Shown piece after piece: positions 57,231 through 59,678 of a stretch of 64,000 bases of DNA. Each line of letters starts with the position of its first letter. Within the stretch, counting starts at the first letter, position 1. The notes under the pieces were generated by a model that worked only from the letters and a program-made list of their open reading frames with translations, ran no database searches and had not been told where the DNA came from. Source of the stretch: Desulfarculus baarsii DSM 2075 (GTDB taxonomy: Bacteria; Desulfobacterota; Desulfarculia; Desulfarculales; Desulfarculaceae); NCBI RefSeq assembly GCF_000143965.1, contig NC_014365.1, positions 3,561,501-3,625,500 on the forward strand. Reading direction: 5' to 3'. Both the position numbers and the translations under genes were made by a program.

Positions 57231-57992
57231 TTGACCAGGTTGCTGTCGAGGCTTTTGCTTGTAACGGCGGTTTTTTGGGCGCTGGCGGCCCCGGCCTGGG
57301 CCGGCGACGGCCCCTGGGCCGGACGCGGGGCCGACGGTGCGGCCATGGACGGGGCCGGGTTGGCCCAGGCCCTGGCCGGACACCGGGCCTGGCTGCAAAG
57401 CGGCGGCGCGCAAGGCCGCAAACTGGACATGCAACGGGCCGACCTGAGCGGCGCGCCCCTGGAGCGAGCCAACCTGGCGCGGGCCGTGCTGGCCGGGGCC
57501 AGATTGGCCGCCGCCAAGCTGAACGGCGCGCATCTGGCCGGGGCCTCGCTGGACTACGCCGACTGCCAAAAGGCCGACCTGCGCGGGGCCGACCTGCAAC
57601 GAGCCGAGGCCTGGGGCTGTCGCCTGATCCAGGCCGACCTGCGCGGGGCCGACCTGCGCGGGGCCCAACTCACCGAGGCCAACCTCTATGGCGCCGACCT
57701 GCGCGGGGCCGACCTGCGCGGCGCGGCCCTGGTCACCGCCCGGCTGATCCAGGCCCGGCTGGAGGGCGCGCGGATGAAAGGGGCCGACCTGGATGGCGCC
57801 CAGCTCAGCGGCCAGGATCTGCGCCGCCTCGACCTGGCCGGGGCCAAGCTGCGCTGGGCCGAGTTGGACGGCTGCGATCTGCGCGGCGTCGACCTGCGCG
57901 GGGCCGACCTGCGCCAGGCCAACCTCAAGGGCGCGCGCCTGAATGGGGCCAAGCTGGAGGGCGCGTTGCTGGAGGGCGCAAGCCGCGATTGA
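57231..57992 (+). CDS. Secreted pentapeptide-repeat protein
   Basis: 253 residues from TTG 57231, chosen because a perfect GGAGG lies five bases upstream and the sequence then begins with a signal peptide (LLSRLLLVTAVFWALAAPAWA). From about residue 55 there are some 30 A(D/N)LxG-type pentapeptides (ADLSG, ADLRG, AKLNG), forming a right-handed quadrilateral beta-helix. In-frame ATGs upstream are possible. A perfect terminator follows at 58081. Function unknown; exported members may contact the envelope or mimic nucleic acid. Confidence 0.82.
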   Translation: MTRLLSRLLLVTAVFWALAAPAWAGDGPWAGRGADGAAMDGAGLAQALAGHRAWLQSGGAQGRKLDMQRADLSGAPLERANLARAVLAGARLAAAKLNGAHLAGASLDYADCQKADLRGADLQRAEAWGCRLIQADLRGADLRGAQLTEANLYGADLRGADLRGAALVTARLIQARLEGARMKGADLDGAQLSGQDLRRLDLAGAKLRWAELDGCDLRGVDLRGADLRQANLKGARLNGAKLEGALLEGASRD

Positions 57993-58080: not shown

Positions 58081-58108
58081 AAAAAATCGCCTCCGATGGC
58101 GATTTTTT
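58081..58108 (+). terminator. Terminator after the pentapeptide-repeat gene
   Basis: Perfect 11-bp stem AAAAAATCGCC / GGCGATTTTTT with a 6-nt loop, ending in a T-run. The A-rich left arm also lets it act on the minus strand. Confidence 0.85.
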
Positions 58109-58109
58109 A

Positions 58110-58139
58110 TTGACACGCCGGGGGCGGTTTATTTATATT
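58110..58139 (+). promoter_or_regulatory. Consensus sigma-70 promoter
   Basis: TTGACA (58110-58115), 18-bp spacer and TATATT (58134-58139, 5 of 6). One of the strongest promoters in the window, immediately after the preceding terminator. Transcription is predicted to begin near 58146. Confidence 0.8.
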
Positions 58140-58145
58140 GGGGGA

Positions 58146-58302
58146 ATCGCATAAGCGCAAAGGGCTACGATTGCCCGGCATTAAGGCAATCCGTAGCATC
58201 CATCACGGGGAAACTATATCAGAAACCTTTTGGCCCGGCCAACCCCAAATGTTGGGGTTTGCGTGACAAAATCCTCCAGCGGAGGTGGGCGGGCCGTTTT
58301 TT
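58146..58302 (+). ncRNA. Candidate small structured RNA (~157 nt)
   Basis: Bounded by the consensus promoter and a terminator. A hairpin GCTACGATTGCC / GGCAATCCGTAGC (58164-58175 with 58185-58197, one bulge) is followed by a compact 3' domain: outer stem GGCCCG/CGGGCC (58232-58237 with 58290-58295) enclosing AACCCCAA/TTGGGGTT (3-nt loop) and CCTCC/GGAGG (3-nt loop), then TTTTTT at 58297-58302. No ORF with a ribosome site. It may be a trans-acting sRNA or a leader attenuator of the sigma factor gene; I could not match it to 6S, SRP, tmRNA or RNase P RNA. Confidence 0.6.
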
Positions 58303-58586
58303 CGGCGACCAATGGCCCGGCGATGAGGCCGGCCGGGGTTGCATCGGGCCGAGCCAAGCCTTAGCTTATGGCCAAAAGCGCCCGGCCCAGACGGCCAGGC
58401 GCGGCAAGACGGCTTGGCGGCAACAAAAATATCGCCCCCAGAGGGCTTCAGCTAGAGCGATCCGCCGCGACCCGGCAATAAACAGGGCCCCAGGTTGGGC
58501 ACATTAAAAAAACAACGGGAACGCCGCGGAAAAGACAACTTGGCATGGGGTCGGCCCGCGGGCCGACCGACGGAAAGGGATTAGCC
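58303..58586 (+). other. Untranslated leader region of the sigma factor gene
   Basis: About 280 bp without a credible ORF between the candidate sRNA terminator and the sigma gene. It contains a further long-range complementarity GCCAAGCC (58353-58360) with GGCTTGGC (58411-58418). No second strong promoter was seen, so the sigma gene may be read by leakage through the upstream terminator. Confidence 0.4.
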
Positions 58587-59678
58587 ATGGCTGCCAGCCG
58601 TGAAGAAAGATTCGTCGATCCGGGTCTTGACACGCCGGTGACCTATTTCAAGGAAGTGGAAGGCCGCGACCTGCTCACCCCCGAAAGGGAGCTGGAGTTG
58701 GGCAAGACCATCCACGACGGGCGCAACGAGATCCTGACCAAATCGCTGGTGATCATCAGCCGCTTCCAAGAGGCCGAGGACACCTGCCGGCGCATCACCG
58801 ATTGGCTGGAGGACTCTCACAAGTCGCCGCTGTCGGTGGAGGACGTCATGGCCGAGGCCAAGGACCAGGTCTCGCGTTGCTGCCGCCGCCTGGGCGAGAA
58901 AAAGGTCGATGTCGAGCAACTGGTGCGCGACATCAACCGCGCCCGCCGTGAGGTGGAGGCCGCCGTCAGCGAGATGGTCGAGGCCAACCTGCGCCTGGCC
59001 GTGTCCATCGCCAAGAAATACACCTTCCGGGGCCTGTCGTTCGCCGACCTGATCCAGGAAGGCAACATCGGCCTGATGAAGGCGGTCAACCGTTACGACT
59101 ATCGCACCGGCTACCGCTTCAGCACCTTCGCCTCGTGGTGGATCCGCCAGACCATCAGCCGGGCCATCTACGACCAGGCGCGGACGATCCGCATCCCCAT
59201 CCACCTGTTGGAGCTGCGCAGCAAATACTTCCGCGTCTACTACGGCCTGCTCAAGGAGCTGGGCCGCGAGCCCACCCCCAAGGAGGTGGCCGAAAAAGTC
59301 GGCATCACCGAGGACAAGGTCAAGGAGATCATCAACCTGACCCTGGACTCCACCTCACTGGAGACCCCGGTGGGCGAGGACGGCGACGAACTGGGCGACT
59401 TCATCGAGAACAAGGACGCCGAGGATCCCTTCTCGATGGTCGGCGAGACCGAGATGCACGGCCACCTGGAGGCCGCCCTGGATTCGCTGGACGGCCGCGA
59501 GCGCCGCATCCTCGAGATGCGCTTCGGTCTGGGCGACGAGGACGAGCACACCCTCGAGGAAGTTGGCCAGGTCTTTGGCCTCTCGCGCGAGCGCGTGCGC
59601 CAGATCGAGAAAAAGGCCCTGCAACGCCTGCGTCATCCCCAGTGGCGCACCATCCTCGAAGACCACGTCGGCTGCTGA
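58587..59678 (+). CDS. Sigma-70 family RNA polymerase sigma factor (RpoD/RpoS-like)
   Basis: 363 residues. Region 1.2 ([21 protein letters not shown]), region 2 ([27 protein letters not shown] and [15 protein letters not shown]), region 3, and region 4 with the helix-turn-helix [19 protein letters not shown]. Size and lack of region 1.1 point to a group 1/2 factor: either an RpoS-like alternative factor or a short RpoD. ATG 58587 has GGAAAGGG upstream. The short linker after region 1.2 ([16 protein letters not shown]) is unlike E. coli RpoD. Confidence 0.9.

Follow-up and report, generated by a model that had tools for sequence, protein, structure and literature searches.

Organisation of the sigma factor locus

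The window, a stretch of 64,000 nucleotides of the Desulfarculus baarsii DSM 2075 genome (3,561,501–3,625,500 of a single-contig genome of 3,655,731 bases, 99.98% complete), contained the candidate unit between a pentapeptide-repeat gene, which ended at 57992, and a sigma-70 family gene (58587–59678, + strand). The latter encoded an RpoD/RpoS-like protein of 363 amino acids from 58587, with an in-frame ATG also present at 58545, which confirmed the position ahead of a sigma factor gene that had been given in the first-pass annotation. The upstream unit was closed by a bidirectional-type intrinsic terminator (58081–58108) consisting of a perfect 11-bp stem (AAAAAATCGCC-TCCGAT-GGCGATTTTTT; loop TCCGAT) and each strand carried a T6 run, at 58103 and 58086. 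A search for tRNA and tmRNA genes found none.

Directly after this terminator, as had been described, lay a promoter which we have designated P1 (58110–58139, + strand). It consisted of TTGACA (58110–58115), an 18-nt spacer and TATATT (58134–58139), matched the consensus at 11 of 12 positions and had a predicted start near 58146. Genome-wide, TTGACA-N16-18-TATAWT occurred at 6 sites in 3.66 Mb, compared to 2 for a reversed-pattern control. The other five sites were upstream of dnaJ-like, tRNA-Leu, aminotransferase-like, acyltransferase-like and mnmA-like genes, the names being assigned by reading translations. A near-perfect TTGACA-17-TATAAT promoter at L112 (G000:C1:399142–399170) was followed by approximately 250 nt of apparently non-coding leader and an aminotransferase-like gene.

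A second promoter, P2 (58339–58368, + strand), with the sequence TTGCAT-N15-CTTAGCTTA, matched a motif found upstream of sigma orthologs, and 1 of 100 shuffles was as good. In eight relatives (G002, G003, G004, G005, G007, G008, G009 and G010) the corresponding motif, TTGACT-N14-CTTAGTTTA, was located 157–256 nt before the matched sigma start, with 0–1 of 100 shuffles as good; these counts flatter the members of genus g3 because the motif was read off the same sequences, of which the window was not one. P2 was downstream of the end of the candidate unit at 58302, the putative terminator of the unit being 37 bases ahead of it, so the sigma gene could be transcribed without P1.

Predicted transcript and terminator

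From P1 and a downstream T6 run we infer the existence and both ends of a transcript of approximately 157 nt (58146–58302, + strand). Its computed fold contained the inner design that had been described, with two tight hairpins in a closing stem and a long bulged hairpin. The bulged 5′ hairpin (58164–58197, + strand; GCTACG.ATTGCC/GGCAAT.CCGTAGC) was, when isolated, the sole part of the RNA with outstanding fold stability (z −3.1). The whole RNA folded with an unexceptional z of −1.78 to −1.97 (16.6% of 800 segments from the same 64 kb folded at z ≤ −1.78).

The 3′ domain (58232–58302, + strand) formed a putative terminator in which a GC-rich 6-bp closing stem (58232–58237/58290–58295) surrounded a 52-nt loop of two hairpins, one of which was CCTCC-AGC-GGAGG, and was followed by a G and the T6 run (58297–58302). 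Of the compact structured 3′ end reported in the first-pass annotation, the T6 run and the closing stem were present, but the structure was not a compact hairpin and was not among the entries of a consensus terminator scan. The closing structure at the 58302 T run (−34.4 kcal/mol) was the most stable of those at the 38 runs of T6 or longer in the window, yet −30 kcal/mol was reached by 4.5% of random positions, and the terminator is therefore judged likely but atypical. With its bifurcated 52-nt loop it may be inefficient. No competing upstream antiterminator fold was seen in the unit; CGGGCC (58290–58295) had an alternative pairing at 58311–58319, but that site follows the T run. P1, the upstream terminator, the T6 run and the fold elements are themselves real features of this DNA.

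The same region also holds a TTG-started open frame (58138–58266, 42 amino acids) which, from its first or its inner TTG, could encode a short leader peptide or small protein, and an SD-like AAAGGG precedes the inner TTG by a few bases. Such a product is highly improbable, as the start is a TTG, the translation had no Pfam match (best E 0.069) and lacked the kind of amino-acid run seen in leader peptides, the search of the order returned no related DNA, and at 67% G+C open frames are frequent.

Search for relatives of the RNA

A match to a known Rfam family would have spoken against the proposal of a new small RNA; none was found in the window at either gathering or permissive thresholds. BLASTN against the 20 other genomes of the order returned only chance-level matches of approximately 16–40 nt, and a single-sequence covariance model searched against 21 genomes gave a best non-self match of E 0.06, also at chance level. 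A partial minus-strand self-match of this model corresponded to the near-palindromic 3′ domain. When the unit was aligned pairwise with the upstream regions of 17 sigma genes, no score exceeded that of the best shuffle, and no relative of the RNA was found upstream of the sigma orthologs. BLASTN of 297 genomes drawn from the phylum revealed no relative of the RNA, and BLASTN of plasmids revealed no match.

A 6S RNA control with the same model design was positive in 19 of the 21 genomes, including D. baarsii itself, each at E 2e-20 or better, and hence in 18 of the 20 other genomes of the order. The search was therefore powerful enough to find a well conserved RNA of such size; as 6S RNA is under strong constraint, a fast-evolving RNA could still escape it. 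The nearest sigma ortholog had 84% protein identity, and D. baarsii was the only member of its genus among the 21 genomes. Conservation of the stems in relatives, which had been proposed as a check, was sought by covariance model in a set with no second congeneric genome, and no relative was found in the 20 other genomes of the order. This result, by both DNA and covariance-model search in the order, did not bear out the suggestion that the inner design is that of a selected RNA. As judged by sequence comparison, the RNA candidate is lineage-specific, with no relative in any genome searched. Among the papers searched, none linked Desulfarculus baarsii to small RNA.

Its own strong promoter, its own putative terminator with a U6 tail and an unpaired, A/U-rich middle would all suit an independent, lineage-specific sRNA gene whose product acts in trans by pairing with mRNAs, for example via the unpaired region around 58198–58228 or the CCUCC segment. 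We consider this unlikely, since no match to Hfq (PF17209) was found in the 99.98% complete genome, whereas the same search was positive in five controls, since the order and phylum searches found no relatives of the RNA, and since pairing with the sigma leader was at background, 70% of random segments doing equally well.

The sigma locus in related genomes

In ten relatives (G001, G002, G003, G005, G006, G007, G008, G009, G015 and G016) the sigma gene directly followed an HTH/4Fe-4S gene. The copies of this gene were 51–82% identical to the G007 copy, which was used as the reference; G014 also had the gene, its sigma neighbour not being seen. The upstream ends, which were read in all relatives with the 4Fe-4S gene but G006, showed a TTGAC promoter followed approximately 20–35 nt on by a GC-rich hairpin in which the 5′ arm was pyrimidine and the 3′ arm purine. 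The HTH/4Fe-4S gene was absent at the locus from D. baarsii, G004, G010, G012, G013 and Dethiosulfatarculus (G011), and despite this all six retained a TTGACA promoter ahead of their sigma gene. A hairpin and T run lay between P1 and the sigma gene in G004 (T5) and in Dethiosulfatarculus (T8), with no sequence similarity to those of the window. On the tree of the sigma proteins four presence changes of the 4Fe-4S gene were needed, two of them forced by well-supported branches; the gene has therefore been lost or gained more than once at this locus.

Alignment of the window's P1 with the P1 of the relatives gave a summed score of 699, compared to a mean of 445 (sd 35, maximum 568) for 125 TTGAC-anchored control segments, which were somewhat easy to beat as they were mostly coding sequence. 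The best single alignments were to G015, G013 and G002. We conclude that P1 probably descends from the distal promoter that this locus had ancestrally.

Possible origin and function of the unit

Taken together, the best-supported reading, which we hold tentatively and at a little under an even chance, is that the unit is a discrete leader transcript of P1 which terminates early and lies beside the sigma gene, a lineage-specific 'leader sRNA'. It is preferred because the P1 RNA is predicted to be terminated at 58302 and because G004 and Dethiosulfatarculus likewise have a hairpin and T run between P1 and the sigma gene. Computation established the quality of the promoter, the similarity of P1 to that of the relatives, the presence of P2, the absence of the gene at the locus and the absence of RNA relatives. 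P1 would be the old distal promoter of a locus of 4Fe-4S gene and sigma gene; as this lineage no longer has the 4Fe-4S gene at the locus, P1 would now make a free RNA of approximately 157 nt ending at the bifurcated terminator, and the sigma gene would be served mainly by its own promoter, P2.

A serious rival to the terminated leader, although a rather unlikely one, is a functionless relic, in which P1 outlived the loss of the 4Fe-4S gene and was silenced by a fortuitous terminator. The missing gene, the unconserved RNA and its ordinary fold stability would all be expected of a relic, but P1 was closer to the consensus in the window than in the relatives read and was kept in several lineages without the gene, where a useless promoter would not need keeping.

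For the terminated leader we infer that any regulation would most likely act in cis: transcription from P1 would stop at 58302 unless termination fails, and as P1 RNA would reach the sigma gene only in that event, the terminator would set the read-through from P1. The released RNA may be no more than a by-product, or may regulate weakly in trans. Attenuation in cis has somewhat better odds than action in trans, a trans role being made less likely by the lack of an Hfq match and of unusual pairing with the sigma leader. The candidate would plausibly be a fairly ordinary regulatory leader. That an orphaned operon leader has been freed as a stand-alone regulatory RNA beside the sigma gene in a genome with no recognisable Hfq, with parallel cases at the locus in other genera of the order, is improbable.

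The independent small RNA proposed in the first-pass annotation stands in part. The promoter-to-terminator unit, the lack of an Rfam match, the distinction from 6S RNA and the separate P2 agree with it. P1, however, resembles the promoter of the 4Fe-4S gene found ahead of the sigma gene in relatives, so that a leader deprived of its first gene is a more probable origin for the unit than the independent emergence of an sRNA gene. If there is such a transcript, it would be a worked example of gene loss turning an operon leader into a small RNA, the earlier arrangement of leader and gene being still visible in relatives, and it would place a leader RNA beside an RpoD/RpoS-like sigma factor in a group whose RNA control has been little studied. 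If it does not exist, the locus would hold a strong promoter with a fortuitous terminator.

Comparison with known regulatory RNAs

The E. coli rpoS leader, a long one that runs on into the mRNA, is subject to Rho-dependent premature termination and to control by sRNAs. It resembles the unit in being a leader upstream of an RpoS/RpoD-type sigma gene, but the window has a predicted intrinsic-type terminator 37 bases before a second promoter, and there is no homology between the two.

6S RNA (RF00013) has a similar length and a sigma-factor context, but had no gathering-score match in the window, the true 6S RNA being at G000:C1:327902–328084 (66.5 bits). A CsrA-sequestering RNA of the CsrB/RsmZ type was rejected as the 157 nt contained only two GGA triplets, neither in a stable hairpin loop, and an Hfq-dependent sRNA as the host genome had no PF17209 match. 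The window's unit does not belong to a sequence family.

The closest described case found was UpsM of Rhodobacter sphaeroides, a small RNA which a Rho-independent terminator within a long 5′ leader sets free ahead of the conserved dcw cluster, which was mapped by RNA-seq and Northern blot and which is linked to Hfq and RNase E (PMC5089854). The window's unit is likewise predicted to be a small RNA released by a terminator in a leader ahead of a gene; UpsM differs in its link to Hfq and in preceding the dcw cluster (PMC5089854), whereas the D. baarsii genome has no Hfq match and its sigma gene has its own downstream promoter. The window's unit would work similarly if it is functional.

A conserved leader hairpin in related genera

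In genus g3 a GC-rich hairpin (CCCCTTCCC-loop-GGGAAGGGG) was found directly after P1 of the 4Fe-4S/sigma locus, enclosed by an outer stem of variable sequence in which a conserved UUUU takes part in the pairing. The sites were L131:2405–2525 (G007), L140 (G008), L144 (G003), L142 (G009), L141 (G005), L064:2680–2800 (G004) and L066:549–665 (G010). A covariance model of this hairpin (R3) matched eight genomes at E 5e-8 or better, in single copy and always at the sigma locus; weaker matches elsewhere look like chance. In six sequences every position of the inner stem was paired, and at one pair both bases had changed, which is modest evidence as 39 of 500 shuffles reached the covariation score. 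The outer stem differed yet still paired (GGCUAA/UUAGCC in G004, CAAAAC/GUUUUG in G010). Rfam gave no match at the leader of five loci with the element or its equivalent (L139, L142 and L064 in g3; L145 and L149 outside it). As a conserved structured leader, the g3 hairpin is a stronger candidate than the RNA of the window.

This C-rich hairpin occupies the same position as the window's hairpins, directly after P1 and upstream of the sigma gene, but the latter are unrelated in sequence: the best R3 score in the predicted transcript was 3.4 bits, and there was no R3 match in G000. Related genera showed a comparable hairpin of the CCCCTC type after P1, with a TTAGCGC-like sequence before it, at L145 (G016), L146 (G002), L147 (G015), L148 (G014), L149 (G001), L074 (G012) and L062 (G013). 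Although missed by R3, it is probably the same element.

The sigma upstream regions of the Desulfobaccales (L080, L083, L088, L090, L091 and others) had two consecutive TTGACA promoters, approximately 440 and 340 nt before the matched sigma start, the first of which was followed by a conserved TTGAAAAAATTGCCGATA leader motif; apart from the two promoters and a GCCGATA motif, they held no unit comparable to that of the window. At L064, from the SURF_10 MAG, a 16S rRNA fragment (1–1073, − strand, 1026.7 bits), cut by the locus end, was located approximately 1.6 kb upstream of P1 and on the opposite strand to it.
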